Assembly (NCBI GenBank): GCA_037974665.1
Contig: CM075773.1
Span: 17,908,146 to 17,972,145, forward strand
DNA from: Ehretia macrophylla
Taxonomy: Eukaryota > Streptophyta > Magnoliopsida > Boraginales > Ehretiaceae
Length of the DNA stretch: 64,000 bases
Reading direction: 5' to 3'
The notes under the pieces were generated by a model that worked only from the letters and a program-made list of their open reading frames with translations, had not been told where the DNA came from and did no database searches. A program made the position numbers and the translations under genes. How positions within the stretch are numbered: the stretch's first letter is position 1; every line of letters starts with the position of its first letter. Of this stretch, positions 1 through 64,000 are shown one piece after another.

Positions 1-3000
1 CGCTACGTGAAGCGAAGTTGTCTTGCCCAAGCTGCCATCGGATTCGGTAACAGAAATGTGATGGATTAGGTTGCCGGCCTTCCCGCGGCGCACGACGTAC
101 GATCCGGGACGTAAAAACAGTACAAAAGCAGAAAAGTGTCCGGAAACTGATGAAAACGTTCGATTTTGGGCTCTGAAAAAATACCCAGCGAAGCAGGCTT
201 AGCTGCCCCATCGTGGAGCTCTCGGAGAGCTTTCCAACGGTATGCTGTGGGCCGCGTAACTCCTTACAGATCAAAAGTTATGGGCTCCGGAGCGACGGAC
301 ACTTGGTCCCAAGCCCCACGACCTCGGTTTGCGGGCCCAGCCGCTACGTGAAGCGAAGTTGTCCTGCCCAAGCTGCCGTCGAATTCGGTAACAGAAATGT
401 GACGGATTAGGTTGCCGGCCTTCCCGCGGCGCACGACGTACGATCCGGGACGGAAAAACAGTACAAAAGCAGAAAAGTGTCCGGAAACTGATGAAAACGT
501 TCGATTTTGGGCTCTGAAAAAATACCCTGCGAAGCGGGCTTAGCTGCACCGTCGTGGAGCTCTCGGAGAGCTTTCCAACGGTATGCTGTGGGCCGCGTAA
601 CTCCTTACGGATCAAAAGTTATGGGCTCCGGAGCGACGGACACCTGGTCCCAAGCCCCACGACCTCGGTTTGCGGGCCCAGCCGCTACGTGAAGCGAAGT
701 AGTCTCTCCCAAGGTGACGTCGGATTCGGTAACAGAAATTTGCCGGATTAGGGTGCCGGCCTTCCCGCGGCGCACGACGTACGATCCGGGACGCAAAAAT
801 AGTACAAAAGCAAAAAAGTGTCCCGAAACTGATTAAAACGTTCGATTTTGGGCTCCGAAAAAAGGCACAGCAAAGCAGGCTTAGCAGCCCCGTCGTAGAG
901 CTCTCGGAGAGCTTTCCAACGGTATGCTGTGGGCCGCGTAACTCCTTACGGATCAAGAGTTATGGGCTCCGGAGCGACGGACACCTGGTCCCAAGCCCCA
1001 CGACCTCGGTTTGCGGGCCCAGCCGCTACGTGAAGCGAAGTTGTCTTGCCCAAGATGCCGTCGGATTCGGTAACAGAAATGTGATGGATTAGGTTGCCGG
1101 CCTTCCCGCGGCGCACGACGTACGATCCGGGACGGAAAAACAATACAAATGCAGAAAAGTGTCCGGAAACTGATGAAAACGTTCGATTTTGGGCTCCGAA
1201 AAAATGCCCAGCGAAGCGGGCTTAGCTGCACCATCGTGGAGCTCTCGGAGAGCTTTCCAACGGTATGCTGTGGGCCGCGTAACTCCTTGCGGATCAAAAG
1301 TTATGGGCTCCGGAGCGACGGACACCTGGTCCCAAGCCCCGTGACCTCGGTTTGCGGGCCCAGCCGCTACGTGAAGCGAAGTTGTCTTGCCCAAGATGCC
1401 GTCGGATTCGGTAACAGAAATGTGATGGATTAGGTTGCCGGCCTTCCCGCGGCGCACGACGTACGATCCGGGACGGAAAAACAATACAAATGCAGAAAAG
1501 TGTCCGAAAATTGATGAAAACGTTCGATTTTGGGCTCCGGAAAAAGGCCCAGCGAAGCGGGCTTAGCTGCCCCATCGTAGCGCTCTCGGAGAGCTTTCCA
1601 ACGGTATGCTGTGGGCCGCGTAACTCCTTGCGGATCAAAAGTTATGGGCTCCGGAGCGACGGAGACCTGGTCCCAAGCCCCGTGACCTCGGTTTGCGGGC
1701 CCGGCCACAACGTGAAGCGAAGTTGCCTCGCCCATGGTGCCGTGGGATTCGGTGACAGATACGTGATGAATTAGGTTGCCGTCCTTCCCGCGGCGCACTA
1801 CGTTCGATCCGGGACGAAAAAACAGTACAAAAGCGGAAAAGTGTCCGAAAACTGATGAAAACGTTCGATTTTGGGCTCCGAAAAAAGGCCCAGCGAAGCG
1901 AGCTTGGCTGCCCCGTCGTAGGGCTCTCGGAGAGCTTTCCAACGGTATGCTGTGGGCCGCGTAACTCCTTGCGGATCAAAAGTTATGGGCTCCGGAGCGA
2001 CGGAGACCTGGTCCCAAGCCCCGCGACCTCGGTTTGCGGGCCCGGCCTCAACGTGAAGCGAAGTTGTCTTGTCCAAGGTGCCGTCGGATTCGGTAACAGA
2101 AATGTGATGGATTAGGTTGCCGGCCTTCCCGCGGCGCACGACGTACGATCCGGGACGGAAAAACAGTACAAAAGCAGAAAAGTGTCCGGAAACTGATGAA
2201 AACGTTCGATTTTGGGCTCTGAAAAAATACCCAGCGAAGCGGGCTTAGCTGCACCGTCGTGGAGCTCTCGGAGAGCTTTCCAACGGTATGCTGTGGGCCG
2301 CGTAACTCCTTACGGATCAAAAGTTATGGGCTCCGGAGCGACGGACACCTGGTCCCAAGCCCCACGACCTCGGTTTGCGGGCCCAGCCGCTACGTGAAGC
2401 GAAGTTGTCTTGCCCAAGCTGCCGTCGGATTCGGTAACAGAAATGTGATGGATTAGGTTGCCGGCCTTCCCGCGGCGCACGACGTACGATCCGGACGGAA
2501 AAACAGTACAAAAGCATAAAAGTGTCCGGAAACTGATAAAAACGTTCGATTTTGGGCTCTGAAAAAATACCCAGCGAAGCGGGCTTAGCTGCACCGTCGT
2601 GGAGCTCCCGGAGAGCTTTCCAACGGTATGCTGTGGGCCGCGTAACTCCTTACGGAACAAAAGTTATGGGCTCCGGAGCGACGGACACCTGGTCCCAAGC
2701 CCCACGACCTCGGTTTGCGGGCCCAGCCGCTACGTGAAGCGAAGTTGTCTCGCCCAAGGTGCAGTCGGATTCGGTAACAGAAATGTGACGGATTAGGTTG
2801 CCGGCCTTCCCGCGGCGCACGACGTACGATCCGGGACGTAAAAATAGGACAAAAGCAGAAAAGTCTCCAGAAAATGATGAAAACGTTCGATGTTGGGCTG
2901 CGAAAAAATGTCCAGCAAAGCGGGCTTAGCTGCACCCTCGTAGAGCTCTCGGAGAGCTTTCCAACGGTATGTTGTGGGCCGCGTAACTCCTTGCGGATCA

Positions 3001-6000
3001 AAAGTTATGGGCTCCGGAGCGACGGACACCTGGTCCCAAGCCCCACGACCTCGGTTTGCAGGCTCAGCCTCTACGTAAAGCGAAGTTGTCTCGCCCAAGG
3101 TGCAGTCGGATTCGGTAACAGAAATGTGACGGATTAGGTTGCCGGCCTTCCCGCGGCTCACGACGTACGATCCGGGACGGGAAAACAGTACAAAAGCAGA
3201 AAAGTGTCCGGAAACTGATGAAAACGTTCGATTTTGGGCTCCGAAAAAAGGCCCAGCGAAGCAGGCTTAGCTGCCCCGTCGTAGAGCTCTTGGAGAGCTT
3301 TCCAACGGTATGCTGTGGGCCTCGTAACTCCTTACGGATCAAAAGTTATGGGCTCCGGAGCGACGGACACCTGGTCCCAAGCCCCACGACCTCGGTTTGC
3401 GGGCCCAGCCGCTACGTGAAGCGAAGTTGTCTTGCCCAAGATGCCGTCGGATTCGGTAACAGAAATGTGATGGATTAGGTTGCCGGCCTTCCCGCGGCGC
3501 ACGACGTACGATCCGGGACGGAAAAACAATACAAATGCAGAAAAGTGTCCGGAAACTGATGAAAACGTTCGATTTTGGGCTCCGAAAAAATGCCCAGCGA
3601 AGCGGGCTTAGCTGCACCATCGTGGAGCTCTCGGAGAGCTTTCCAACGGTATGCTGTGGGCCGCGTAACTCCTTACGGATCAAAAGTTATGGGCTCCGGA
3701 GCGACGGACACCTGGTCCCAAGCCCCACGACCTCGGTTTGCGGGCCCAGCCGCTACGTGAAGCGAAGTTGTCTCTCCCAAGGTGACGTCGGATTCGGTAA
3801 CAGAAATGTGACGGATTAGGTTGCCGGCCTTCCCGCGGCGCACGACGTACGATCCGGGACGTAAAAACAGTACAAAAGCAGAAAAGTGTCCGGAAACTGA
3901 TGAAAACGTTCGATTTTGGGCTCCGAAAAAAGGCCCAGCGAAGCGGGCTTAGCTGCCCCGTCGTAGAGCTCTTGGAGAGCTTTCCAACGGTATGCTGTGG
4001 GCCTCGTAACTCCTTACGGATCAAAAGTTATGGGCTCCGGAGCGACGGACACCTGGTCCCAAGCCCCACGACCTCGGTTTGCGGGCCCAGCCGCTACGTG
4101 AAGCGAAGTTGTCTTGCCCAAGAGGCCGCCGGATTCGGTAACAGAAATGTGATGGATTAGGTTGCCGGCCTTCCCGCGGCGCACGACGTACGATCCGGGA
4201 CGGAAAAACAATACAAAAGCAGAAAAGTGTCCGGAAACTGATGAAAACGTTCGATTTTGGGCTCCGAAAAAATGCCCAGCGAAGCGGGCTTAGCTGCACC
4301 ATCGTGGAGCTCTCGGAGAGCTTTCCAACGGTATGCTGTGGGCCGCGTAACTCCTTACGGATCAAAAGTTATGGGCTCCGGAGCGACGGACACCTGGTCC
4401 CAAGCCCCACGACCTCGGTTTGCGGGCCCAGCCGCTACGTGAAGCGAAGTTGTCTTGCCCAAGATGCCGTCGGATTCGGTAACAGAAATGTGATGGATTA
4501 GGTTGCCGGCCTTCCCGCGGCGCACGACGTACGATCCGGGACGGAAAAACAATACAAATGCAGAAAAGTGTCCGGAAACTGATGAAAACGTTCGATTTTG
4601 GGCTCCGAAAAAATGCCCAGCGAAGCGGGCTTAGCTGCACCATCGTGGAGCTCTCGGAGAGCTTTCCAACGGTATGCTGTGGGCCGCGTAACTCCTTACG
4701 GAACAAAAGTTATGGGCTCCGGAGCGACGGACACCTGGTCCCAAGCCCCACGACCTCGGTTTGCGGGCCCAGCCGCTACGTGAAGCAAAGTTGTCTCGCC
4801 CAAGCTGCCGTCGGATTCGGTAACATAAATGTGATGAATCAGGTTGTCGGTCTTCCCGCGGCGCACGACGTACTATCCGGGATGGAAAAACAGTACAAAA
4901 GCAGAAAAGTGTCCGGAAACTGATGAAAACGTTTGATTTTGGGCTCTGAAAAAATACCCAGCGAAGCGGGCTTAGCTGCACCGTCGTGGAGCTCTCGGAG
5001 AGCTTTCCAACGGTATGCTGTGGGCCGCGTAACTCCTTACGGAACAAAAGTTATGGGCTCCGGAGCGACGGACACCTGGTCCCAAGCCCCACGACCTCGG
5101 TTTGCGGGCCCAGCCGCTACGTGAAGCGAAGTTGTCTCGCCCAAGGTGCAGTTGGATTCGGTAACAGAAATGTGACGGATTAGGTTGCCGTCCTTCGCGC
5201 GGCGCACGACGTACGATCCGGGACGAAAAAACAGTACAAAAGCAGAAAAGTGTCCGGAAACTGATGAAAACGTTCGATTTTGGGCTCCGAAAGAAGGCCC
5301 AGCGAAGCAGGCTTAGCTACCACGTCGTGGAGCTCTCGGAGAGCTTTCCAACGGTATGCTATGGGCCGCGTAACTCCTTACGGATCAAAAGTTATGGGCT
5401 CCGGAGCGACGGACACTTGGTCCCAAGCCCCACGACCTCGGTTTGCGGGCCCAGCCGCTACGTGAAGCGAAGTTGTCTCGCCCAAGGTGCCATCGGATTC
5501 GGTAACAGAAATGTGACGGATTAGGTTGCCGGCCTTCCCGCGGCGCACGACGTACGATCCGGGACGTAAAAACAGTACAAAAGCAGAAAAGTGTCCGGAA
5601 ACTGATGAAAACGTTCGATTTTGGGCTCTGAAAAAATACCCAGCGAAGAGGGCTTTGCTGCACCGTCGTGGAGCTCTCGGAGAGCTTTCCAGCGATATGC
5701 TGTGGGCCGCGTAACTCCTTACGGATCAAAAGTTATGGGCTCCGGAGCAACGGAGACCTGGTCCCAAGCCCCACGCCCTTGGTTTGCTGGCCCAGCCTCT
5801 ACGTGAAGCGAAGTTGTCTTGCCCAAGGTACCGTGGTATTCGGTAACAGAAATGGGATAGATTAGGTTGCCGGCCTTCCCGCGGCGCACAACGTACGATC
5901 CGGGACGGAAAAACAGTACAAAAGCAGAAAAGTGTCCGGAAATTGATGAAAACGTTCGATTTTGGGCTCTGAAAAAATACCCAGCGAAGCGGGCTTAGCT

Positions 6001-6968
6001 GCACCGTCGTGGAGCTCTCGGAGAGCTTTCCAACGGTATGCTGTGGGCCGCGTAACTCCTTACGGATCAAAAGTTATGGGCTCTGGAGCGACGGAGACCT
6101 GGTCCCAAGCCCCACGACCTCGGTTTGCGGGCCCAGCCTCTACGTAAAGCAAAGTTGTCTCTCCCAAGGTGCCATGGGATTCGGTAACATAAATGTGATG
6201 GATTAGGTTGCCGGCCTTCCCGCGGCGCACGACGTACGATCCGGGACGTAAAAATAGTACAAAAGTAAAAAAGTGTCCGGAAACTGATGAAAACGTTCGA
6301 TTTTGGGCTCCGAAAAAAGGCCCAGCCAAGCAGATTTGGCTGCCCCGTCATAAAGCTAACGGAGAGCTTTCCAACGGTATGCTGTGGGCCGCATAACTCC
6401 TTACGGATCAAAAGTTATGGGCTCCGAAGCGATTGAGACCTGGTCCCAAGCCCCACGACCTCGGTTTGCAGGCCCAGCCTCTACGTGAAGCGAAGTTGTC
6501 TTGCCCAAGCTGCCATCGGATTCGGTAACAGAAATGTGATGGATTAGATTGCGGGCCTTCCCGCGGCGCACGACGTACAATCCGGGACGGAAAAACATTA
6601 CAAAAGCAGAAAAGTGTCCGGAAACTGATGAAAACTTTCGATTTTGGGCTCCAAAAAAAGGCCCAGCGAAGCGGGCTTAGCTGCCCAGTCGTAGAGCTCT
6701 CGGAGAGCTTTCCAACGGTATGCTGTGGGCTGCGTAACTCCTTACGGATCAAAAGTTATGGGCTCCGGAGCGACGGACACCTGGTCCCAAGCCCCACGAC
6801 CTCGGTTTGCGGGCCCAGCCGCTACGTGAAGCGAAGTTGTCTTGCCCAAGATGCCGTCGGATTCGGTAACAGAAATGTGATGGATTAGGTTGCCGGCCTT
6901 CCCGCGGCGCACGACGTACGATCCGGGACGGAAAAACAATACAAAAGCAGAAAAGTGTCCGGAAACTG

Positions 6969-8672
6969 ATGAAAACGTTCGATTTTGGGCTCCGAAAAAA
7001 TGCCAGGCGAAGCGGGCTTAGCTGCACCATCGTGGAGCTCTCGGAGAGCTTTCCAACGGTATGCTGTGGGCCGCGTAACTCCTTACGGATCAAAAGTTAT
7101 GGGCTCCGGAGCGACGGACACCTGGTCCCAAGCCCCACGACCTCGGTTTGCGGGCCCAGCCGCTACGTGAAGCGAAGTTGTCTCGCCCAAGGTGCAGTCG
7201 GATTCGGTAACAGAAATGTGACGGATTAGGTTGCCGGCCTTCCCGCGGCGCACGACGTACGATCCGGCACGTAAAAACAGTACAAAAGCAGAAAAGTGTC
7301 CGGAAACTGATGAAAACGTTCGATTTTGGGCTCCGAAAAAAGGCCCAGCCAAGCGGGCTTGGCTGCCCCGTCGTAGAGCTCTTGGAGAGCTTTCCAACGG
7401 TATGCTGTGGGCCGCGTAACTACTTACGGATCAAAAGTTATGGGCTCCGGAGCGACGGACACTTGGTCCCAAGCCCCACGACCTCGGTTTGCGGGCCCAG
7501 CCGCTACGTGAAGCGAAGTTGTCTTGCCCAAGCTGCCGTCGGATTCGGTAACAGAAATGTGATGGATTAGGTTGCCGGCCTTCCCGCGGCGCACGACGTA
7601 CGATCCGGGACGTAAAAACAGTACAAAAGCAGAAAAGTGTCCGGAAACTGATGAAAACGTTCGATTTTGGGCTCTGAAAAAATACCCAGCGAAGCGGGCT
7701 TAGCTGCCCCATCGTGGAGCTCTCGGAGAGCTTTCCAACGGTATGCTGTGGGCCGCGTAACTCCTTACGGATCAAAAGTTATGGGCTCCGGAGCGACGGA
7801 CACTTGGTCCCAAGCCCCACGACCTCGGTTTGCGGGCTCAGCCTCTACGTTAAGCGAAGTTGTCTTGCCCAAGGTGCCATGGGATTCGGTAACAGAAATG
7901 TGTCGGATTAGGTTGCCGGCCTTCCCGCGGCGCACGACGTACGATCCGGGACGCAAAAACAGTACAAAAGCAGAAAAGTGTCGCGAAACTGATTAAAACG
8001 TTCGATTTTGGGCTCTGAAAAAATACCCTGCGAAGCGGGCTTAGCTGCACCGTCGTGGAGCTCTCGGAGAGCTTTCCAACGGTATGCTGTGGGCCGCGTA
8101 ACTCCTTACGGATCAAAAGTTATGGGCTCCGGAGCGACGGACACCTGGTCCCAAGCCCCACGACCTCGGTTTGCGGGCCCAGCCGCTACGTGAAGCGAAG
8201 TTGTCTCTCCCAAGGTGACGTCGGATTCGGTAACAGAAATGTCAAGGATTAGGTTGCCGGGATTCCCGCGGCGCACGACGTACGATCCGGGACGGAAAAA
8301 CAGGACAAAAGCAGAAAAGTGTCCGGAAACTGATGAAAACGTTCGATTTTGGGCTCCGAAAAAAGGCCCAGCAAAGTAGGCTTGCTGCACCGTCGTAGAG
8401 CTCTAGGAGAGCTTTCCAACAGTATGTTGTGGGCCGCGTAACTCCTTGCGGATCAAAAGTTATGGGCTCCGGAGCGACGGAGACCTGGTCCCAAGCCCCA
8501 CGACTTCGGTTTGCGAGCCCAGCCTCTACGTGAAGCGAAGTTGTCTTGCCCAAGGTGCCATGGGATTCGGTAACAGAAATGTGATGGATTAGGTTACCGG
8601 CCTTCCTGCGGCGCACGACGTACGATTCGGTACGGAAAAACAGTACAAATACAGAAAAATGTTCGAAAACTG
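6969..8672. repeat. 5-monomer higher-order repeat, copy 1 (1,704 bp)
   Basis: Starts at the ATGAAAACG of a monomer with the diagnostic TGCCAGGCGAAGCG (near 7,002). The following monomers carry, in order, CCCAGCCAAGCGGGCTTGG (7,346), TACCCAGCG with CCCCATCG, TACCCTGCG (8,024), and a divergent fifth monomer with CAGCAAAGTAGGCTTGC. The diagnostic monomer recurs at 8,673. The first four monomers match 17,878-19,200 at a constant offset of 10,909 bp. The fifth differs, so this copy is mosaic. Confidence 0.7.
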
Positions 8673-11600
8673 ATGAAAACGTTCGATTTTGGGCTCCGAA
8701 AAAATGCCAGGCGAAGCGGGCTTAGCTGCACCATCGTGGAGCTCTCGGAGAGCTTTCCAACGGTATGCTGTGGGCCGCGTAACTCCTTACGGATCAAAAG
8801 TTATGGGCTCCGGAGCGACGGACACCTGGTCCCAAGCCCCACGACCTCGGTTTGCGGGCCCAGCCGCTACGTGAAGCGAAGTTGTCTCGCCCAAGGTGCA
8901 GTCGGATTCGGTAACAGAAATGTGACGGATTAGGTTGCCGGCCTTCCCGCGGCGCACGACGTACGATCCGGGACGTAAAAACAGTACAAAAGCAGAAAAG
9001 TGTCCGGAAACTGATGAAAACGTTCGATTTTGGGCTCCGAAAAAAGGCCCAGCGAAGCGGGCTTAGCTGCCCCGTCGTGGAGCTCTTGGAGAGCTTTCCA
9101 ACGGTATGCTATGGGCCGCGTAACTCCTTACGGATCAAAAGTTATGGGCTCCGGAGCGACGGACACTTGGTCCCAAGCCCCACGACCTCGGTTTGCGGGC
9201 CCAGCCGCTACGTGAAGCGAAGTTGTCTCGCCCAAGGTGCCATCGGATTCGGTAACAGAAATGTGACGGATTAGGTTGCCGGCCTTCCCGCGGCGCACGA
9301 CGTACGATCCGGGACGTAAAAACAGTACAAAAGCAGAAAAGTGTCCGGAAACTGATGAAAACGTTCGATTTTGGGCTCTGAAAAAATACCCAGCGAAGCG
9401 GGCTTAGCTGCACCGTCGTGGAGCTCTCGGAGAGCTTTCCAACGGTATGATGTGGGCCGCGTAACTCCTTACGGATCAAAAGTTATGGGCTCCGGAGCGA
9501 CGGACACCTGGTCCCAAGCCCCACGACCTCGGTTTGCGAGCCCAGCCGCTACGTGAAGCGTAGTTGTCTTGCCCAAGCTGCCGTCGGATTCGGTAACAGA
9601 AATGTGATGGATTAGGTTGCCGGCCTTCCCGCGGCGCACGACGTACGATCCGGGACGGAAAAACAGTACAAAAGCAGAAAAGTGTCCGGAAACTGATGAA
9701 AACGTTCGATTTTGGGCTCTGAAAAAATACCCAGCGAAGCGGGCTTAGCTGCACCGTCGTGGAGCTCTCGGAGAGCTTTCCAACAGTATGCTGTGGGCCG
9801 CGTAACTCCTTACGGATCAAAAGTTATGGGTTCCGTAGCGACGGACACCTGGTCCCAAGCCCCACGACCTCGGTTTGCGGGCCCAGCCGCTACGTGAAGC
9901 GAAGTTGTCTCGCCCAAGGTGCAGTGGGATTCGGTAACAAAAATGTGACGGATTAGGTTGTCGTCCTTTTCGCGGCGCACGACGCGCGATTCGGTACGAA
10001 AAAACAGCGCAAAAGAAGAAATGTGTCCAAAAATTGATGAAAACTTTCAATTTTGGGCTCCGGAAAAAGGCCCAGCGAAGCGGGCTTAGCTGCCCCGTCG
10101 TAGAGCTCTTGGAGAGCTTTCCAACGGTATGCTGTGGGCCGCGTAACACCTTGCGGATCAAAAGTTATGGGCTCCGGAGCGACGGACAGTTGGTCCCAAG
10201 CCCCATGACCTCGGTTTGCGGGCCCAGCCGCTACGTGAAGCGAAGTTGTCTCGCCCAAGGTGCCGTCGGATTCGGTAACAGAAATGTGACGGATTAGGTT
10301 GCCGGCCTTCCCACGGCGCACGACGTACGATCCGGGACGGAAAAACAGTACAAAAGCAGAAAAGTGTCCGGAAACTGATGAAAACGTTCGATTTTGGGCT
10401 CCGAAAAAAGGCCCAGCGAAGCGGGCTTTGCTGCCCCGTCGTAGAGCTCTTGGAGAGCTTTCCAACGGTATGCTGTGGGCCTCGTAACTCCTTACGGATC
10501 AAAAGTTATGGGCTCCGGAGCGACGGACACTTGGTCCCAAGCCCCACGACCTCGGTTTGCGGGCCCAGCCGCTACGTGAAGCGAAGTTGTCTCGCCCAAG
10601 GTGCCATCGGATTCGGTAACAGAAATGTGACGGATTAGGTTGCCGGCCTTCCCGCGGCGCACGACGTACGATCCGGGACGTAAAAACAGTACAAAAGCAG
10701 AAAAGTGTCCGGAAACTGATGAAAACGTTCGATTTTGGGCTCTGAAAAAATACCCAGCGAAGCGGGCTTAGCTGCACCGTCGTGGAGCTCTCGGAGAGCT
10801 TTCCAACGGTATGCTGTGGGCCGCGTAACTCCTTACGGATCAAAAGTTATGGGCTCCGGAGCGACGGACACCTGGTCCCAAGCCCCACGACCTCGGTTTG
10901 CGGGCCCAGCCGCTACGTGAAGCGAAGTTGTCTTGCCCAAGCTGCCGTCGGATTTGGTAACAGAAATTTGGCGGATTAGGGTGCCGGCCTTCCCGCGGCG
11001 CACGACGTACGATCCGGGACGGAAAAACAGTGCAAAAGCATAGAAGTGTCCGGAAACTGATTAAAACGTCCAATTTTGGGCTGCGAAAAAATACCCAGCG
11101 AAGCGGGCTTAGCTGCACCGTCGTGGAGCTCTCGGAGAGCTTTCCAACGGTATGCTGTGGGCCGCGTAACTCCTTACGGAACAAAAGTTATGGGCTCTGG
11201 AGCGACGGACACCTGGTCCCAAGCCCCACGACCTCGGTTTGCGGGCCCAGCCGCTACGTGAAGCGAAGTTGTCTCGCCCAAGGTGCAGTCGGATTCGGTA
11301 ACAGAAATGTGACGGATTAGGTTGCCGGCCTTCCCGCGGCGCACGACGTACGATCCGGGACGTAAAAACAGTACAAAAGCAGAAAAGTGTCCGGAAACTG
11401 ATGAAAACGTTCGATTTTGGGCTCCGAAAAAATGCCCAGCAAAGCGGGCTTAGCTGCACCATCGTAGAGCTCTCGGAGAGCTTTCCAACGGTATGTTGTG
11501 GGCCGCGTAACACCTTACGGATCAAAAGTTATGGGCTCTGGAGCGACGGAGACCTGGTCCCAAGCCCCACGACCTCGGTTTGCGGGCCCAGCCGCTACGT

Positions 11601-53700: not shown

Positions 53701-53702
53701 GG

Positions 53703-53883: not shown

Positions 53884-53907
53884 GCCCATTCAAAAGGCCC
53901 AATGGGC
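53884..53907. promoter_or_regulatory. Hairpin with paired TGGGCC motifs upstream of 5S copy 1
   Basis: GCCCATT (53,884-53,890) and AATGGGC (53,901-53,907) form a 7-bp inverted repeat around a 10-nt loop, at about -63 to -86. On the sense strand two TGGGCC motifs lie here. TGGGCC/T motifs are known plant promoter elements (site II) bound by TCP factors. Most units keep both motifs; the unit upstream of copy 11 has GGTCCATTGGGC. A role in 5S expression is inference only. Confidence 0.4.
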
Positions 53908-54240
53908 TTAACGACAACCCATCCGCTTCAACAACGCAGCATCCTCGCAAGACGTGATATCGACGCATTGTAGGGTCCCCTAATGTGCCACGAGTAAGGT
54001 TGTCGTCCTTTTAACAGCTCACGACGTACGATCCGGGACGGAAAAACAGAGCAAAAGAAGAAAAGTAGCCCGAAACTGATGAAAACGTTCAATTTTGAGC
54101 TCCGAAAAGGGCACAGCGAGCTAGCTACCTGCCCCCGTCGTAGAGCTCTCGGAGAGCTTTCCAACGGTATGCTGTGCGCCGCGTAACTCCTTACGGATCA
54201 AAAGTTATGGGCACCGGAGCGACGGAGACCTAGTCACAAG

Positions 54241-54259
54241 CCCTGCGCCCTGCGCCCTC
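54241..54259. repeat. 7-bp duplication marking the 683-bp 5S unit class
   Basis: CCCTGCGCCCTGCGCCCTC has a 7-bp GCGCCCT step where most units have CCCTACGCCCTC. The same class recurs near 55,601 (CCCTGCGCCCTGCTACCTC) and 56,284. It accounts for the 683-bp spacings 1-2, 3-4 and 4-5. The class occurs only in the first five units next to the satellite. Confidence 0.85.
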
Positions 54260-54385
54260 GTTTTGCGGGACCAGCCTCCCCGTGAAGAGAAGTTGTCTTG
54301 CCCGAGGTGCCGTGGGATTCGATAATAAAAATGTGGTGGGTAAAGTATCTTGGCAAACCTAACTGGAGCAAAAAAATTGAAAAGG

Positions 54386-54504
54386 GGGGTGCAACACGAG
54401 GACTTCCCAGGGGGTCACCCATCCTAGTACTACTCTCCCCCAAGCACGCTTAACTTCGGAGTTCTGATGGGATCCGGTGCATTAGTGCTGGTATGATCGC
54501 ACCC
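54386..54504 (-). rRNA. 5S ribosomal RNA, copy 2
   Basis: One substitution from consensus, C67G, at the first base of the intermediate element. Boxes A and C, the upstream element and both T-runs are intact. Probably functional unless the promoter change matters. Confidence 0.95.
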
Positions 54505-54676
54505 GTCATGTTGAGGGCACAATTCCTTTATGTGTTAACGGTTCACAGTCCCAGCCTAGAGATATGGCCCATTCAAAAGGCCCAATGGGCTTAACGACAA
54601 CCCATCCGCTTCAACAACGCAGCATCCTCGCAAGACGTGATATCGACGCATTGTAGGGTCCTCTAATGTACCGCGA

Positions 54677-55015
54677 GTAAGGTTGTCGTCCTTTTAACAG
54701 CTCACGACGTACGATCCGGGACGGAAAAACAGAGCAAAAGAAGAAAAGTAGCCCGAAACTGATGAAAACGTTCGATTTTGAGCTCCGAAAAGGGCACAGC
54801 GAGCTAGCTACCTGCCCCCGTCGTAGAGATCTCGGAGAGCTTTCCAACGGTATGCTGTGCACCGCGTAACTCCTTACGGATCAAAAGTTATGGGCACCGG
54901 AGCGACGGAGACCTGGTCACAAGCCCTACGCCCTCGGTTTGCGGGCCCAGCCTCCACGTGAAGAGAAGTTGTCTTGCCCAAGGTGCCGTGGGATTCGATA
55001 ATAGAAATGTGGTGG
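54677..55015. repeat. Reference satellite-like segment of the 5S spacer (339 bp)
   Basis: This segment starts at the GTAA of GAGTAAGGTTG and ends just before the GTAA of GGTGGGTAAAG. It aligns along its whole length with one satellite monomer. The best stretches are the A-tract region, the core from the hairpin region to GGTATGCTGTG, and CCGCGTAACTCC through AAAAGTTATGGGC, the last differing by only a few bases in this copy (AGATCTCGG, GTGCACCGCG). The first 30 bp or so (CCTTTTAACAGCTC against CCTTCCCGCGGCGC) and the short palindromic stretch before the hairpin are the least alike. Confidence 0.9.
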
Positions 55016-55061
55016 GTAAAGTATCTTGGCAACCCTAATCGGAGCAAAAAAATTGAAAAGG

Positions 55062-55180
55062 GGGGTGCAACACGAGGACTTCCCAGGGGGTCACCCATCC
55101 AAGTACTACTCTTGCCCAAGCACGCTTAACTTTGGAGTTCTGATGCGATCCGGTGCATTAGTGCTAGTATGATCGCACCC
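55062..55180 (-). rRNA. 5S ribosomal RNA, copy 3 (degenerate)
   Basis: Five substitutions: C15T, C35G, G48A, G68A and A80T. G68A hits the intermediate element and A80T the first base of box C. G48A and G68A are C-to-T changes on the opposite strand at CpG sites, as expected from methylcytosine decay. Length, flanks and terminator are normal. It may be silent or a decaying copy. Confidence 0.88.
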
Positions 55181-55744
55181 GTCATGTTGAGGGCACAATT
55201 CCTTTATGTGTTAACGGTTCACAGTCCCAGCCTAGAGATATGGCCCATTCAAAAGGCCCAATGGGCTTAACGACAACCCATCCACTTCAACAACGCAGCA
55301 TCCTCGCAAGACGGGATATCGACGCATTGGAGGATCCCCTAATGTGCAACGAGTAAGGTTGTCGTCCTTTTAACAGCTCACGACACACGATCCGGGACGG
55401 AAAAACAGAGCAAAAGAAGAAAAGTAGCCTGAAACTGATGAAAACGTTCGATTTTGAGCTCCGAAAAGGGCACGGCGAGCTAGCTACCTGCCCCCGTCGT
55501 AGAGCTCTCGGAGAGCTTTCCAACGGTATGCTGTGCGCAGCGTAACTCCTTACGGATCAAAAGTTATGGGCACCGGAGCGACGGAGACCTAGTCACAAGC
55601 CCTGCGCCCTGCTACCTCGTTTTGCGGCCCCACCCTCCCGGTGAAGAGAAGGTGTCATGCCCAAGGTGCCGTGGGATTCGATAATAAAAATGTGGTGGGT
55701 AAAGTATCTTGGCAACCCTAACCGGAGCAAAAAAATTGAAAAGG

Positions 55745-55863
55745 GGGGTGCAACACGAGGACTTCCCAGGGGGTCACCCATCCTAGTACTACTCTCACCC
55801 AAGCACGCTTAACTTCGGAGTTCTGATGGGATCCGGTGCATTAGTGCTGGTATGATCGCACCC
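55745..55863 (-). rRNA. 5S ribosomal RNA, copy 4
   Basis: One substitution, C67T, a CpG transition in the intermediate element, at the same base that is changed in copy 2. Promoter boxes, upstream element and T-runs are otherwise intact. Confidence 0.95.
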
Positions 55864-56427
55864 GTCATGTTGAGGGCACAATTCCTTTATGTGTTAACGG
55901 TTCACAGTCCCAGCCTAGAGATATGGCCCATTCAAAAGGCCCAATGGGCTTAACGACAACCCATCCACTTCAACAACGCAGCATCCTCGCAAGACGTGAT
56001 ATCGACGCATTGTAGGGTCCCCTAATGTGCCACGAGTAAGGTTGTCGTCCTTTTAACAGCTCACGACGTACGATCCGGGACGGAAAAACAGAGCAAAAGA
56101 AGAAAAGTAGCCCGAAACTGATGAAAACGTTCCATTTTGAGCTCCGAAAAGGGCACGGCGAGCTAGCTACCTGCCCCCGTCGTAGAGCTCTCGGAGAGCT
56201 TTCCAACGGTATGCTGTGCGCCGCGTAACTCCTTACGGATCAAAAGTTATGGGCACTGGAGCGACGGAGACCTGGTCACAAGCCCTGCGCCCTGCGCCCT
56301 CGTTTTGCTGGCCCAGCCTCCCCTTGAAGAGAAGTTGCCTTGCCCAAGGTGCCGTGGGATTCGATAATAAAAATGTGGTGGGTAAAGTAACTTGGCAACC
56401 CTAACCGGAGCAAAAAAATTGAAAAGG

Positions 56428-56546
56428 GGGGTGCAACACGAGGACTTCCCAGGGGGTCACCCATCCTAGTACTACTCTCGCCCAAGCACGCTTAACTTCG
56501 GAGTTCTGATGGGATCCGGTGCATTAGTGCTGGTATGATCGCAGCC
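56428..56546 (-). rRNA. 5S ribosomal RNA, copy 5
   Basis: One substitution, G3C, which would unpair one base of helix I between the two ends of the RNA. The internal promoter, upstream element and terminator match consensus. Probably transcribed, perhaps less stable. Confidence 0.94.
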
Positions 56547-57105
56547 GTCATGTTGAGGGCACAATTCCTTTATGTGTTAACGGTTCACAGTCCCAGCCTA
56601 GAGATATGGCCCATTCAAAAGGCCCAATGGGCTTAACGACAACCCATCCGCATCAACAACGCAGCATCCTCGCAAGACGTGATATCGACGCATTGTAGGG
56701 TCCTCTAATGTGCCGCGAGTAAGGTTGTCGTCCTTTTAACAGCTCACGACGTACGATCCGGGACGAAAAAACAGAGCAAAAGAAGAAAAGTGGCACGAAA
56801 CTGATGAAAACGTTCGATTTTAGGCTCCAAAACGGGTTCAGCAAGCAAGCTTGCTGCCCACGTTGTAGAGCTTTCGGAAAGCTTTCCAACGGTATGCTGT
56901 GCGCCGTGTAGCTCCTTACGGATCAAAAGTTATGGGCACCGAAGCGACGGAGACCTGGTCACAAGCCTTACGCACTCGGTTTGCGGGCCCAGCCTCCACG
57001 TGAAGCGAAGTTGTCTTGCCCAAGGTGCCGTGGGATTCGATAATAGAAATGTGGTGGGTAAAGTATCTTGGCAACCCTAACCGGAGCAAAAAAAAATTGA
57101 AAAGG

Positions 57106-57224
57106 GGGGTGCAACACGAGGACTTCCCAGGGGGTCACCCATCCTAGTACTACTCTCGCCCAAGCACGCTTAACTTCGGAGTTCTAATGGGATCCGGTGC
57201 ATTAGTGCTGGTATGATCGCACCC
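57106..57224 (-). rRNA. 5S ribosomal RNA, copy 6
   Basis: One substitution, C39T, outside the promoter boxes. The 5' flank has one change (GAAGGC for GAGGGC on the plus strand, near -11). The second terminator run is T9, the longest in the array. Confidence 0.95.
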
Positions 57225-57782
57225 GTCATGTTGAAGGCACAATTCCTTTATGTGTTAACGGTTCACAGTCCCAGCCTAGAGATATGGCCCATTCAAAAGG
57301 CCCAATGGGCTTAACGACAACCCATCCGCTTCAACAACGCAGCATCCTCGCAAGACGTGATATCGACGCATTGTAGGGTCCTCTAATGTGCCGCGAGTAA
57401 GGTTGTCGTCCTTTTAACAGCTCACGACGTACGATCCGGGATCGAAAAATAGAGCAAAAGAAGAAAAGTGGCCCAAAATAGATGAAAGCGTTCGATTTTG
57501 AGCTCCGAAAAGGGCACAGCAAGCTAGTTTGCTACCCCAGTCGTAGAGTTCTCAGAGTGCTTTCCAACGGTATGCTGTGCGCCTCGTAACTCCTTACGGA
57601 TCAAAAGTTATGGGCACCGGAGCGACGGAGACCTAGTCACAAGCCCTACGCCCTCGGTTTGCGGGCCCAGCCTCCCCGTGAAGAGAAGTTGTCTTGCCCA
57701 AGGTGCCGTGGGATACGATAATAGAAATGTGGTGGGTAAAGTATCTTGGCAACCCTAACCGGAGCTAAAAAAATTGAAAAGG

Positions 57783-57901
57783 TGCGTGCACCCCGAGGAC
57801 TTCCCAGGGGGTCATCCATCCTAGTACTACTCTCGTCCAACCACGCTTAACTTCGGAGTTCTGATGGGATCCGGTGCATTAGTGCTGGTATGATCACACC
57901 T
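57783..57901 (-). pseudogene. 5S rRNA pseudogene, copy 7
   Basis: Nine substitutions: G1A, C6T, C61G, G66A, G87A, T109G, T111G, C117G and C119A. C61G lies in box A and G87A in box C. The changes at both ends damage helix I. The copy is full length with no indel, so it is a recently decayed member. It keeps its upstream element and T-runs, so transcription cannot be excluded. Confidence 0.85.
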
Positions 57902-58459
57902 GTCATGTTGAGGGCACAATTCCTTTATGTGTTAACGGTTCACAGTCCCAGCCGAGAGATATGGCCCATTCAAAAGGCCCAATGGGCTTAACGACAACCC
58001 ATCCACTTCAACAACGCAGCATCCACGCAAGACGTGATATCGACGCATAGTAGGGTCCTCTAATGTGCCGCGAGTAAGGTTGTCGTCCTTTTAACAGCTC
58101 ACGACGTACGATCCGGGACGGAAAAACAGAGCAAAAGAAGAAAAGTGACCCGAAACTGATGAAAACGTTCAATTTTGAGCTTGGAAAAGGGCAAAGCGAG
58201 CTAGCTGGCTGCCCCCGTCGTAGAGCTTTCAGAGAGATTTCCAACGGTATGCTGTGCGCCTCGTAACTCCTTACGGATCAAAAGTTATGGGCACCGGAGC
58301 GACGGAGACCTGGTCACAAGCCCTACGCCCTCGGTTTGCGGGCCCAGCCTCCACGTGAAGAGAAATTGTCTTGCCCAAGGTGTCGTGGGATTTGATAGTA
58401 GAAATGTGGTGGGTAAAGTATCTTGGCAACCCTAACCGGAGCAAAAAAAATTGAAAAGG

Positions 58460-58578
58460 GGGGTGCAACACGAGGACTTCCCAGGGGGTCACCCATCCTA
58501 GTACTACTCTCGCCCAAGCACGCTTAACTTCGGAGTTCTGATGGGATCCGGTGCATTAGTGCTGGTATGATCGCACCC
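58460..58578 (-). rRNA. 5S ribosomal RNA, copy 8 (consensus)
   Basis: Identical to copies 1 and 14 over all 119 nt. Box A is at 58,529-58,515, the intermediate element at 58,512-58,507 and box C at 58,499-58,482. Upstream element and terminator (T4, then T8) are intact. With copy 14 it is the best candidate for an active gene here. Confidence 0.98.
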
Positions 58579-59136
58579 GTCATGTTGAGGGCACAATTCC
58601 TTTATGTGTTAACGGTTCACAGTCCCAGCCTAGAGATATGGCCCATTCAAAAGGCCCAATGGGCTTAACGACAACCCATCCGCTTCAACAACGCAGCATC
58701 CTCGCAAGACGTGATATCGACGCATTGTAGGGTCCTCTAATGTGCCGCGAGTAAGGTTGTCGTCCTTTTAACAGCTCACGACGTACGATCCGGGACGGAA
58801 AAACAGAGCAAAAGAAGAAAAGTGGCCTGAAACTGATGAAAACGTTCAATTTTGAGCTCGAAAAAGGGCACAGCGAGCTAACTGGCTGCCCCCGTCGTAG
58901 AGCTCTCAGAGAGCTGTCCAACGGTATGTTGTGCGCCTCGTAACTCCTTACGGATCAAAAGTTATGGGCAACGGAGCGACGGAGACCTAGTCACAAAACC
59001 TACGCCCTCGGTTTGCGGGCCTCCCCTCCGCGTGGAGAGAAGTTGTTTTGCCCAAGCTGCCGTGGGATTCGATAATAGAAATGTGGTGGGTAAAGTATCT
59101 TGGCAACCCTAACCGGAGCAAAAAAAATTGAAAAGG

Positions 59137-59255
59137 GGGGTGCAACACGAGGACTTCCCAGGGGGTCACCCATCCTAGTACTACTCTCGGCCAAGCACGC
59201 TTAACTTCGTAGTTCTGATGGGATCCGGTGCATTAGTGCTGGTATGATCGCACCC
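59137..59255 (-). rRNA. 5S ribosomal RNA, copy 9
   Basis: Two substitutions, C46A and G66C, neither in the core of box A or box C. Flanks and T-runs are intact. Probably functional. Confidence 0.94.
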
Positions 59256-59812
59256 GTCATGTTGAGGGCACAATTCCTTTATGTGTTACCGGTTCACAGT
59301 CCCAGCCTAGAGATATGGCCCATTCAAAAGGCCCAATGGGCTTAACGACAACCCATCCGCTTCAACAACGCAGCATCCTCGCAAGACGTGATATCGACGC
59401 ATTGTAGGGTCCTCTAATGTGCCGCGAGTAAGGTTGTCATCCCTTTAACAGCTCACGACGTACGATCAGGGACGGAAAAATAGAGCAAAAGAAGAAAAGT
59501 GTCCCGAAACTGATGAAAACGTTCAATTTTGAGCTCGAAAAAGGGCACAGCAAGCTAGTTGGCTGCCCCGTCGTAGAGCTCTCAGAGAGCTTTCCAATGG
59601 TATGATGTGCGCCTCGTAACTCCTTACGGATCAAAAGTTATGGGCACCGGAGCGACGGAGACCTGGTCACAAGCACTACGCCCTCGGTTTGCGGGCCCAG
59701 CCTCCACGTGAAGAGAAGTTGTCTTGCCCAAGGTGCCGTGGGATTCGATAATAGAAATGTGGTGGGTAAAGTATCTTGGCAACCCTAACCGGAGCAAAAA
59801 AAATTGAAAAGT

Positions 59813-59931
59813 GGGGTGCAACACGAGGACTTCCCAGGGGGTCACCCATCCTAGTACTACTCTCGCCCAAGCACGCTTAACTTCGGAGTTTTGATGGGAT
59901 CCGGTGCATTAGTGCTGGTATGATCGCACCC
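59813..59931 (-). rRNA. 5S ribosomal RNA, copy 10
   Basis: One substitution, G41A, outside the promoter boxes. Just past the 3' end the flank reads AC before TTTT instead of CC. Probably functional. Confidence 0.95.
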
Positions 59932-60488
59932 GTCATGTTGAGGGCACAATTCCTTTATGTGTTAACGGTTCACAGTCCCAACCTAGAGATATGGCCCATT
60001 CAAAAGGCCCAATGGGCTTAACGACAACCCATCCGCTTCAACAACGCAGCATCCTCGCAAGACGTGATATCTACGCATTGTAGGGTCCTCTAATGTGCCG
60101 CGAGTAAGGTTGTCGTCCTTTTAACAGCTCACGACGTACGATCCGGGATGGAAAAGCAGAGCAAAAGAAGAAAAGTGGCCCAAAACTGATGAAAACGTTC
60201 GATTTTGATCTCCGAAAAGGGCACATCAAGCTAGCTTGCTGCCCCCTTCATAGTGCTCTCAGAGAGCTTTCCAACGGTATGCTGTGCGCCTCATAACTCC
60301 TTACGGATCAAAAGTTATGGGCACCGGAGCGACGGAGACCTGGTCACAAGCCCTACGCCCTCGGTTTGTGGGCCCAGCCTCCACGTGAAGAGAAGTTGTC
60401 TTGCCCAAGGTGCCGTGGGATTCGATAATAGAAATGTGGTGGATAAAGTATCTTGGCAACCCTAACCGGAGCAAAAAAAATTGAAAAG

Positions 60489-60607
60489 GGGGTGCAACAC
60501 GAGGACTTCCCAGAGGGTCACCCATCCTAGTGCTACTCTCGCCCAAGCGCGCTTAACTTCGGAGTAATGATGGGATCCGGTGCATTAGTGCTGGCATGAT
60601 CGCACCC
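60489..60607 (-). rRNA. 5S ribosomal RNA, copy 11 (degenerate)
   Basis: Six substitutions: A13G, G41T, A42T, T59C, T76C and C94T. T59C is in box A and C94T in box C. The adjacent G41T and A42T pair suggests a single event. The G-run after the gene end is one base shorter. Probably impaired. Confidence 0.87.
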
Positions 60608-60997
60608 GTCATGTTGAGGGCACAATTCCTTTATGTGTTAACGGTTCACAGTCCCAGCCCAGAGATATGGCCCATTCAAAAGGTCCATTGGGCTTAACGA
60701 CAACCCATCCGCTTCAACAACGCAGCATCCTCGCAAGACGGGATATCGACGCATTGTAGGGTCCTCTAATGTGCCGTGAGTAAGGTTGTCGTCCTTTTAA
60801 CAGCTCACGACGTACGATCCGGGATGGAAGAACAGAGCAAAAGAAGAAAAGTGGCCCGAAACTGATGAAAACGTTCGATTTTGAGCTCCGAAAAGGGCAC
60901 AGCAAGCAAGCTTGCTACCCCCGTCGTAGAGCTCTCAGAGAGCTTTCCAACGGTATGTTGTGCGCCTCGTAACTCCTTACGGATCCAAAGTTATGGG

Positions 60998-61006
60998 CAC
61001 CGGTTT
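60998..61006. other. 37-bp deletion in one 5S spacer
   Basis: At CAC-CGG-TTT the spacer lacks 37 bp present in other units, between CAC|CGGAGCGACGG and CGCCCT|CGGTTT. CGG flanks the missing segment on both sides and one copy remains, the mark of slippage or microhomology joining. This makes the 640-bp spacing between genes 11 and 12. Confidence 0.9.
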
Positions 61007-61128
61007 GCGGGCCCAGCCTCCACGTGAAGAGAAGTTGTCTTGCCCAAGGTGCCGTGGGATTCGATAATAGAAATGTGGTGGGTAAAGTATCTTGGCAACC
61101 CTAACCGGTGCAAAAAAAATTGAAAAGG

Positions 61129-61247
61129 GGGGTGCAACACGAGGACTTCCCAGAGGGTTACCCATCCTAGTACTACTCTCGCCCAACCACGCTTAACTTC
61201 GGAATTCTGATGGGATCCGGTGCATTAGTGCTGGTATGATCGCACCC
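61129..61247 (-). rRNA. 5S ribosomal RNA, copy 12 (degenerate)
   Basis: Four substitutions: C44T, C61G, G89A and C94T. Three lie in box A or box C. C94T is shared with copy 11 and C61G with copy 7, which points to exchange of variants between copies. The spacer on its 3' side carries the 37-bp deletion. The 5' flank has one change near -3. Confidence 0.88.
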
Positions 61248-61540
61248 GCCATGTTGAGGGCACAATTCCTTTATGTGTTAACGGTTCACAGTCCCAGCCT
61301 AGAGATATGGCCCATTCAAAAGGCCCAATGGGCTTAACGACAACCCATCCGCTTCAACAACGCAGCATCCTCACAAGACGTGATATCGACGCATTGTAGG
61401 GTTCTCTAATATGCCGCGAGTAAGGTTGTCGTCCTTTTAACAGCTCACGACGTACGATCCGGGAGGGAAAAACAGAGCAAAAGAAGAAAAGTGGCCCGAA
61501 ACTGATGAAAACGTTCGATTTTGAGCTCCGAAAAGGGCAC

Positions 61541-61556
61541 AGCAAGCTAGCTTGCT
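61541..61556. repeat. Perfect 16-bp palindrome in a 5S spacer
   Basis: AGCAAGCTAGCTTGCT is its own reverse complement. Related units have partial forms, such as TCAAGCTAGCTTGC near 60,227 and GCGAGCTAGCTACC near 54,114. It lies at the monomer position that carries the enlarged inverted repeat at 30,186-30,210 in the satellite. Confidence 0.85.
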
Positions 61557-61805
61557 GCCCTAGTCATAGAGCTCTTAGAGAGCTTTCCAACGGTATGTTG
61601 TGCGCCTCGTAACTCCTTACGGATCAAAAGTTATGGGCACCGGAGCGACGGAGACCTGGTCACAAGCCCTACGCCCTCGGTTTACGGGCCCAGCCTCCAC
61701 GTGAAGAGAAGTTGTCTTGCCCAAGGTGCCGTGGGATTCGATAATAGAAATGTGGTGGGTAAAGTATCTTGGCAACCCTAGCCGGAGCAAAAAAAATTGA
61801 AAAGG

Positions 61806-61924
61806 GGGGTACAACACGAGGACTTCCTAGGGGGTCACCCATCCTAGTACTACCCTCGCCCAAGCACGCTTAACTTTGGTGTTCTGATGGGATCCAGTAC
61901 ATTTTTGATGGTATGATCGCACCC
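61806..61924 (-). pseudogene. 5S rRNA pseudogene, copy 13
   Basis: Ten substitutions, the most in the array: G17T, C20A, T21A, C26T, C29T, T45A, G48A, A71G, G97A and C114T. G97A falls at the end of box C and A71G in the intermediate element. A 2-bp deletion upstream moves the TATA-like box about 2 bp closer to the start. Both the internal and the external promoter are thus altered, so this is very likely silent. Confidence 0.88.
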
Positions 61925-61950
61925 GTCATGTTGAGGGCACAATTTTTATG
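61925..61950 (-). promoter_or_regulatory. Altered upstream promoter of 5S copy 13
   Basis: The plus strand reads CACAATTTTTATG where the other copies read CACAATTCCTTTATG. The 2-bp loss changes the TATA-like box to ATAAAA and puts it at -25 instead of -27. This weakens the case that copy 13 is transcribed. Confidence 0.75.
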
Positions 61951-62463
61951 TGTTAACAGTTCACAGTCCCAGCCTAGAGATATGGCCCATTCAAAAGGCC
62001 CAATGGGCTTAACGACAACCCATCCGCTTCAACAACGCAGCATCCTCGCAAGACGTGATATCGACTCATTGTAGGGTCCTCCAACGTGCCGCGAGTAAGG
62101 TTGTCGTCCTTTTAACAGCTCACGACGTACAATCCGGGACAGAAAAACAGGGCAAAAGAAGAAAAGTGGCCAGAAACTGATGAAAACGTTCGATTTTGAG
62201 CTCCGAAAAGGGCACAGCGAGCTAGCTTGCTGGCCCCGTCATAGAGCTCTCAGAGTGCTTTCCAACGGTATGCTGTGCGCCTAGTACCTCCTTACGGATC
62301 AAAAGTTATGGGCACCGGAACGACGGAGACCTGGTCACAAGCCCTACGCCCTCGGTTTACGGGCCCAGCCTCCACGTGAAGAGAAGTTGTCTTGCCCAAG
62401 GTGCCGTGGGATTCGATAATAGAAATGTGGCGGGTAAAGTGTCTTGGCAACCCTAACCGGAGC

Positions 62464-62480
62464 AAAAAAAATTGCAATGG
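62464..62480 (-). terminator. Single-run Pol III terminator of 5S copy 14
   Basis: The plus strand reads AAAAAAAATTGCAATGG in place of the usual AAAAAAAATTGAAAAGG. The gene-proximal TTTT is lost on the sense strand, leaving only the distal T8 run as a stop. Confidence 0.8.
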
Positions 62481-62599
62481 GGGGTGCAACACGAGGACTT
62501 CCCAGGGGGTCACCCATCCTAGTACTACTCTCGCCCAAGCACGCTTAACTTCGGAGTTCTGATGGGATCCGGTGCATTAGTGCTGGTATGATCGCACCC
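62481..62599 (-). rRNA. 5S ribosomal RNA, copy 14 (consensus)
   Basis: Identical to the array consensus. Upstream element intact. The terminator differs: the first T4 run is broken (ATTGC on the sense strand) and only the distal T8 run at 62,464-62,471 remains, so the primary transcript may carry a longer 3' tail before trimming. Confidence 0.97.
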
Positions 62600-63157
62600 G
62601 TCATGTTGAGGGCACAATTCCTTTATGTGTTACCGGTTCACAGTCCCAGCCTAGAGATATGGCCCATTCAAAAGGCCCAATGGGCTTAACGACAACCCAT
62701 CCGCTTCAACAACGCAGCATCCTCGCAAGACGTGATATCGACTCATTGTAGGGTCCTCTAATGTGCCGCGAGTAAGGTTGTCATCCTTTTAACAGCTCAC
62801 GACGTACGATCCGGGAGGGAAAAACAGAGCAAAAGAAGAAAAGTGGTCCGAAACTGATGAAAACGTTCGATTTTGAACTCCGAAAAGGGCACAGCAAGCT
62901 AGGTTGCTGCTCTCGTCGTAGAGCTCTCAGAGAGCTTTCCAACGGTATGTTGTGCGCCTCGTAACTCCTTACGGATCAAAAGTTATGGGCACCGGAGCGA
63001 CAGAGACCTAGTCACAAGACCTACGCCCTCGGTTTGCGGGTCCAGCCTCCCCGTGAAGCGAAGTTGTCTTGCCCAATGTGCCTTGGGATTCGATAATAGA
63101 AATGTGGTGGATAAAGTATCTTGGCAACCCTAACCGGAGCAAAAAAAATTGAAAAGG

Positions 63158-63276
63158 GATGTTCAACACGAGGACTTCCCAGGGGGTCACCCATCCTAGT
63201 ACTACTCTCGCCCAAACACGCTTAACTTCGGAGTTCTGATGGGATCCGATGCATTAGTACTGGTATGATCGCACCC
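63158..63276 (-). rRNA. 5S ribosomal RNA, copy 15 (degenerate)
   Basis: Six substitutions: C18T, C28T, C61T, C114A, C117A and C118T. Three at the 3' end break helix I and C61T is in box A. All six change a C on the RNA strand. The terminator T-runs remain. Probably a decaying copy. Confidence 0.87.
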
Positions 63277-63826
63277 GTCATGTTGAGGGCACAATTCCTT
63301 TATGTGTTAACGGTTCACAGTCCCAGCCTAGAGAGATGGCCCATTCAAAAGGCCCAATGGGCTTAACGACAACCCATCCGCCTCAACAACGCTTGTAAGA
63401 TGTGATATCGATGCATTGTAAGGCACTCTAATTTCCAGCAAGTAAGCTCTTTGTCCTTTTAACAGCTCACGACGTACGATCTGGGACTGAAAAACAGAGC
63501 AAAAGAAGAAAAGTGGCCCGAAACTGATGAAAACGTTCGATTTTGAGCTCCGAAAAGGGTACAGGGAGCTAGCTTGCTGCCCCATCGTAAAGCTCTCAGA
63601 GAGCTTTCCAACGGTATGCTGTGCACCTCGTAACTCCTTACGGATCAAAAGTTATGGGCACCGGAGCGACGGAGACCTGGTCACAAGCCCTACGCCCTCG
63701 GTTTGCGGGCCCAGCCTCCACGTGAAGAGAAGTTGTCTTGCCCAAGGTGCCATGGGATTCGATAATAGAAATGTGGTGGGTAAAGTATCTTGGCAACCGT
63801 AACCGGAGCAAAAAAAATTGAAAAGG

Positions 63827-63945
63827 GGGGTGCAACACGAGGACTTCCCAGGGGGTCACCCATCCTAGTACTACTCTCGCCCAAGCACGCTTAACTTCGG
63901 AGTTCTTATGGGATCCGGTGCATTAGTGCTGGTATGATCGCACCC
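63827..63945 (-). rRNA. 5S ribosomal RNA, copy 16
   Basis: One substitution, C39A, at the base changed to T in copy 6. Boxes, flanks and T-runs are intact. The spacer on its 3' side has lost about 8 bp (CAACGCTTGTAAGATG against CAACGCAGCATCCTCGCAAG near 63,387). The next unit is cut by the window edge. Confidence 0.95.
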
Positions 63946-64000
63946 GTCATGTTGAGGGCACAATTCCTTTATGTGTTAACGGTTCACAGTCCCAGCCTAG

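Follow-up and report, generated by a model that had tools for sequence, protein, structure and literature searches.

A 341-bp satellite and the core of a 5S rDNA spacer form one sequence family in Ehretia macrophylla

Satellites derived from 5S ribosomal DNA (rDNA) are known from few cases. As far as the available parts of the respective sources go, they include PcP190 of frogs, the Hoplias centromeric repeat and, in plants, the strongly amplified PLsatB of Plantago lagopus, a B-specific cluster whose 325-bp monomer resembles 5S rDNA (PMC6410184). Related situations, described in the accessible portions of other reports, include satellites of tomato (PMC2679016), Phaseolus and Vicia (PMC12692304), in which a 35S spacer has been amplified without an rRNA gene; Prosopanche panguanensis, in which 5S rDNA is among the largest repeat classes, at over 15% (PMC12222929); and the fish Esox, whose 5S rDNA exceeds 20,000 copies (slot blot: about 200,000), spread over 30-38 chromosomes, and whose degenerate 5S units have been proposed as satellite seeds (PMC5437419). 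Here we analyse a 64,000-nt stretch of Ehretia macrophylla DNA, referred to as the window (C10:17,908,146-17,972,145; genome assembly of 1.58 Gb in 20 contigs, C1 onwards), in which a gene-free array of a 341-bp satellite adjoins an array of 5S rRNA genes. The satellite monomer belongs to the same sequence family as the core of the 5S spacer, and this family probably originated in the spacer. No description of this 341-bp family was found among the open-licence papers that the searches listed; one may well be published.

The satellite monomer and the 5S spacer segment

The window, which has no N bases, contains the following elements:

1..53538, plus strand: satellite array without a 5S gene; its 157 monomers of 341 bp form one subfamily (Tandem Repeats Finder, Rfam; right edge by best split)
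53703..63945, minus strand: sixteen 5S rRNA genes, 675-683 bp from start to start except one spacing of 640 bp and one of 669 bp (Rfam)
53822..53996, plus strand: 5′ flank of one 5S gene of the 677-bp type, given as an example; the first ~30 bp are common to a 532-bp type, in which the remainder is absent
54680..55015, plus strand: one instance of the spacer segment, with homology to a single satellite monomer; the segment is present once per spacer in 15 of 15 complete spacers

Alignment of the 558-bp consensus of the 15 spacers with the consensus of the window monomers reveals homology over the whole length of the monomer, through one full turn. Specifically, spacer positions 176-511 match the monomer at 300 of 339 positions with 4 gaps, in the same orientation (E 5e-122), which bears out the end-to-end alignment with about 40 differences in 340 given in a preliminary description of the window; we count 39. 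That description had named chance-level similarity outside a short motif as the observation that would speak against it, and the E value over 339 bp rules out chance or a short common motif as the source of the homology.

Outside this segment the likeness ceases. The 5S gene, its 5′ flank and its 3′ flank are no more similar to the satellite than shuffled sequences are: the observed score was reached by 179 (plus strand) and 182 (minus strand) of 200 shuffles for the gene, by 120 and 34 for the 5′ flank, and by 35 and 11 for the 3′ flank. Rfam finds no 5S gene at positions 1-53,538, and the satellite lacks gene, 5′ flank and terminator, as had been proposed. Beyond the segment, likeness to the satellite is restricted to the left edge of the segment in the 677-bp type (~19 bp), with none for the flanks or the gene as whole pieces.

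Tandem Repeats Finder reports a single array at 1-53,540 (period 341, 157.0 copies, 93% matches), in agreement with the roughly 157 copies described before. The 157 monomers cut from it measure 341 bp in 150 cases, 340 bp in five, and 339 and 345 bp in one each, and their mean pairwise identity is 93.0%. Identity between monomers k positions apart is flat (0.928-0.936 for k = 1-39); the highest value, at k = 21 (0.936 versus about 0.930), may indicate a weak higher-order repeat.

The 5S units of the window are plain head-to-tail repeats of gene and spacer, with a run of T (terminator) after the gene. For comparison, Cassandra-type retroelements carry a 5S gene in their terminal repeats and are marked by LTR ends, a primer binding site and a polypurine tract. 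The 172-bp 5′ flank described before exists, and its position is corrected to upstream of the genes, which read leftwards. In 3 of 15 complete window units the gene equals the consensus. The three lowest Rfam scores (86.9-91.2 bits), at 57,783-57,901, 60,489-60,607 and 61,806-61,924, each occur singly between higher-scoring copies.

Genome-wide families and the join at 53,539

Both components of the window occur in very many copies elsewhere. Among eighteen 3-kb samples from C10 at 14-20 Mb, 12 contained 5S rDNA, 4 the satellite only and 2 neither; within 15.0-18.8 Mb all samples were 5S except for satellite at 17.90 Mb and neither at 15.5 Mb, and samples at 3.0 and 4.4 Mb were both 5S. The 5S array noted in the preliminary description is therefore present but not confined to the window, and the 16 genes are only the part of it that lies inside. 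A further 20 samples, 6 of them set on known 5S matches, gave 5S in 8, satellite only in 4 and neither in 8. A systematic survey at 40 points on C1-C7, the first 40 of 100 planned (20 of 6 kb, 20 of 700 bp), gave satellite only at 5 and 5S at 3; runs of N were present at two of these points (L059, 1987 bases; L075, 106 bases). Altogether, family-bearing loci were fetched from 13 of the 20 contigs; 13 of the fetched loci hold satellite only, so that arrays exist outside rDNA, and the satellite occurs at scattered positions. The plant character of the DNA shows in the resemblance of the 5S gene to plant 5S and in a Pfam match to 'putative plant transposon protein' that remained below the cut-off (39.3 bits versus 45).

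Whole-genome pattern counts, for which controls gave 0 to 3 matches, define the scale. A 25-mer from the 5S gene, with up to 3 mismatches, has 115,668 + 99,172 = 214,840 matches (control 0); a pattern from the segment core has 507,107 (control 1); a pattern across the junction between satellite monomers has 264,157 (control 3); and patterns from the 5′ flank of the 677-bp type and from the left edge of the 532-bp type have 169,369 and 11,590, respectively. The junction count agrees with the number of satellite monomers obtained by difference (292,267). In calibration loci the gene pattern found 109 of 110 BLAST genes (27 loci of the 677-bp type) and 17 of 18 (9 loci of the 532-bp type), and the junction pattern had no match in these 36 loci; L019 was among the loci counted in calibrating the patterns. 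None of the patterns matched in 42 fetched loci without the family. In the window the junction pattern gave 134 counts for 157 monomers. Arithmetic from unit lengths puts 5S rDNA at ~115-145 Mb (7-9% of the assembly) and the satellite at ~90-100 Mb (about 6%), together 13-16% or about one seventh; these shares are estimates, because the patterns miss diverged copies and the assembly may collapse or inflate arrays.

Comparison of three consensuses indicates how the window satellite relates to these families: a satellite consensus from 88 monomers outside the window, a spacer consensus from 101 segments outside the window (including one of the 532-bp type, from L046), and a window consensus from 156 monomers. 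The spacer and unit sets and the 677-type calibration loci exclude overlapping or window-internal loci (L001, L002, L004, L006 and L007), and the satellite sets for the consensus and the first tree exclude L001 and L019. Satellite and spacer share 316 identical positions (22 mismatches, 2 gaps), satellite and window 316 (23 mismatches, 3 gaps), and window and spacer 301 (36 mismatches, 5 gaps). In the three-way alignment 294 columns are the same; satellite and spacer agree against the window in 23, satellite and window against the spacer in 18, and spacer and window against the satellite in 1, with all three different in 5. At the level of consensuses the window satellite thus has no special kinship with the spacers. 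Window satellite and spacer segment are separate branches from a sequence like the satellite consensus; the former is a subfamily derived within the genome-wide satellite and did not arise from the 5S array beside it. In a first tree of 224 segments, with a random 20 of the 156 window monomers, all but one segment fall into separate satellite and spacer groups. Between places, satellites share 79-88% identity, which makes them about as distant from one another as from spacers (81-85% on average).

The boundary between the two arrays was located by finding the best split of 53,401-53,702 between the satellite and the 677-bp unit:

53539..53539, no strand: breakpoint between satellite and 5S array, at which the phase jumps back ~60 bp inside the shared segment
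53539..53702, plus strand: truncated first spacer, comprising the end of the shared segment and the 3′ flank of the first 5S gene (sequence reading, best split)

The satellite ends with base 53,538, where it meets the 5S array out of register. This point marks a break between blocks and not the birthplace of the satellite: in the window, one satellite subfamily has been broken and joined to a 5S array of the 677-bp type, and two genome-wide families meet.

The title of the preliminary description suggested a satellite made out of the array beside it. Physical adjacency and 88% identity speak for such local generation, and the adjacency of two arrays on one molecule stands; but the 23, 18 and 1 columns, the out-of-register breakpoint and the position of the window monomers in the trees, on the satellite side with monomers from other chromosomes, all oppose it, and both arrays are pieces of many-copy families. 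We regard local generation as almost certainly wrong. Of the spacer-derived satellite claimed there, the homology holds and an origin from a spacer is favoured below; what falls is an origin from the adjoining array. It is also very improbable that the join, or the sizes of the arrays, are artefacts of assembly. Long tandem arrays are error-prone in genome assembly, and the sampled loci L059 and L075 hold runs of N; against this, the window has none, family loci lie on 13 contigs, and the two estimates of satellite number agree.

Origin and direction of the family

A second type of 5S unit places the segment in the history of the spacer. Sample L046 on C18 has units of 532 bp that are more divergent than the 677-bp type; scored matches to this type lie, among the matches listed, on C18, C17 and C1, and the first places listed for its left-edge pattern are spread over ten contigs. 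Nine loci were used, namely L046 and eight picked by hand from the match list (L089-L096). In their 415-bp spacer consensus (10 sequences) the segment stands between a promoter-side flank of ~30 bp and a terminator-side flank; the remainder of the 677-type 5′ flank is missing. The terminator-side flank is homologous to that of the 677-bp type (score reached by 0 of 2000 shuffles). The segment lies at the same place in both types, between homologous promoter-side and terminator-side flanks, and was therefore in the spacer before the types split.

Short direct repeats border the segment in the 677-bp type:

53982..53999, plus strand: left copy of an imperfect direct repeat, AATGTG...GTAAGG, matching the satellite junction (shuffle test)
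54330..54345, plus strand: right copy, AATGTG...GTAAAG; its distance from the left one is 348 bp here and 341 bp in the unit consensus

In the unit consensus of this type, AATGTG occurs 341 bp apart on both sides of the segment, and the repeats extend imperfectly to ~19 bp. The score between left and right copies was reached by 4 of 2000 shuffles, as was that between the left copy and the satellite junction.

We consider it somewhat probable that the satellite arose long ago from a 5S spacer by recombination between these short direct repeats. In an ancestor, recombination between the imperfect repeats flanking the spacer core, by unequal exchange or through a small circle that formed there and was amplified, would have released the core without 5S gene, 5′ flank or terminator. 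This gene-free unit would then have reached many chromosomes and split into local subfamilies; units with the gene would have been amplified separately to ~200,000 copies of at least two types. At the window, one subfamily is seen broken and joined to an array of the 677-bp type. In favour of this reading stand the end-to-end homology, the genome-wide counts, the common place of the segment in two 5S types, the direct repeats with their match to the satellite junction, the three clean clades of the tree below and the lack of 677-type spacers without the segment.

Several observations weigh against this derivation. The satellite consensus occupies the centre of the family, and diversity is greater among satellite arrays (79-88% identity between loci). 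In a tree of 100 satellite monomers (a random 12 of the 156 window monomers among them), 45 non-window segments of the 677-bp type, likewise drawn at random, and 9 of the 532-bp type, with the truncated spacer L046u1 left out, the three groups form clean clades with none misplaced (support 0.76, 0.994 and 0.999); satellite and spacer clades are separate, neither is nested in the other, and the tree does not give the direction because it is unrooted. Among 338 gapless columns of a four-way comparison that adds the 532-bp type, 275 are the same, the window differs alone in 23, the 532-bp type in 18, the 677-type-based spacer consensus in 12 and the satellite in 1, three states occur in 4, and the two spacer types agree with each other in 5; the sole two-two split, satellite and window against both spacers, rests on these 5 sites. 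The 532-bp type lacks the left repeat, and its left edge resembles the satellite junction no better than shuffled sequences do (1015 of 2000 reach the score); the right flanks of the 677- and 532-bp types match the junction weakly (355 and 83 of 2000). The fresh tandem junction predicted from the present 677-type spacer has 3 matches, all with 3 mismatches. About 34,000 matches to the 5S gene fall outside both flank patterns and may represent a third type, truncated units or more diverged units.

Much of this would also follow if the satellite came first and a 5S spacer had captured a piece of it, a little more than one monomer in length, before the types split, after which the enlarged unit spread; a captured piece of that length would leave repeats at both ends too. 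The preliminary description had allowed for such a reversal of direction. The node position of the satellite consensus in the three-way comparison, the greater diversity of satellite arrays and the resemblance of the left edge of the 677-type segment to the satellite junction agree with such a capture, as does the length of the 677-type spacer without its segment, ~200 bp, which is an ordinary length for a 5S spacer. A 532-type spacer before capture, by contrast, would have measured only ~77 bp (from the consensus). Moreover, a search directed at one form of 677-type spacer without the segment, exact anchors separated by a gap of 0-30, gave none, whereas these anchors occur 10,890 times with a gap of 345-375; this absence is weak evidence, because homogenisation could have erased such spacers. 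We hold capture to be possible but rather doubtful, and retain release from the spacer as the preferred origin.

State of the 5S genes and comparison with known systems

Few 5S genes match the consensus exactly. In 96 sampled complete units the gene is identical to it in 9; genome-wide, the 119-bp gene consensus has 2,611 exact copies versus 214,840 25-mer matches (about 1.2%), and the sampled units are richer in exact genes perhaps because many samples lay on best matches. The first 100 exact copies listed all lie at C1:866,383-1,494,202, a candidate active locus. Mean differences from the consensus are as follows:

96 sampled units: gene 0.025, 5′ flank 0.033, segment 0.046, 3′ flank 0.041
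12 older units, from four loci and classed so after lower identities were seen: gene 0.048, 5′ flank 0.091, segment 0.090, 3′ flank 0.075
15 window units: gene 0.024, 5′ flank 0.020, segment 0.042, 3′ flank 0.049

In the older units the gene is thus better conserved than the other parts, but in the window conservation of the 5′ flank equals or exceeds that of the gene. Among the younger sampled units, the gene is nearly as variable as its 5′ flank (0.0216 versus 0.0252). Most of these 5S arrays look satellite-like, and they may be silent in heterochromatin. Because exact copies are so few among the matches and gene and 5′ flank vary so similarly, one could suppose that the 341-bp segment, about two nucleosome lengths long, is the amplifying unit, alone or with a 5S gene, and that most 5S genes are passengers of a satellite; we think this unlikely.

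Gene-free arrays, two 5S types with the segment in common, a junction motif and ~200,000 5S genes here occur together in one assembly. Comparison of close relatives makes origin, direction and gene loss testable, and the exact consensus copies, ~1% of 5S matches, raise the question of how functional 5S genes stay uniform.

The family differs from systems named at the outset, within what the available parts of those sources describe. For Esox, a fish, and for Prosopanche panguanensis, those parts yielded no description of a gene-free spacer satellite and of a 5S-spacer-derived satellite, respectively (PMC5437419, PMC12222929); the Prosopanche data are short reads, and 5S genes of Hydnoraceae are highly divergent. 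In PcP190 a 120-bp region resembling the 5S gene is retained, whereas the Ehretia satellite keeps spacer only. PLsatB is specific to a B chromosome and is said to have arisen by amplification that included 5S rDNA fragments (PMC6410184), whereas the Ehretia family consists of spacer alone and occupies many chromosomes. The satellites of tomato, Phaseolus and Vicia stem from the 35S intergenic spacer (PMC2679016, PMC12692304), whereas the counterpart in Ehretia is the 5S spacer. The Ehretia family thus belongs to a known kind of repeat, and it is the scale that is unusual.

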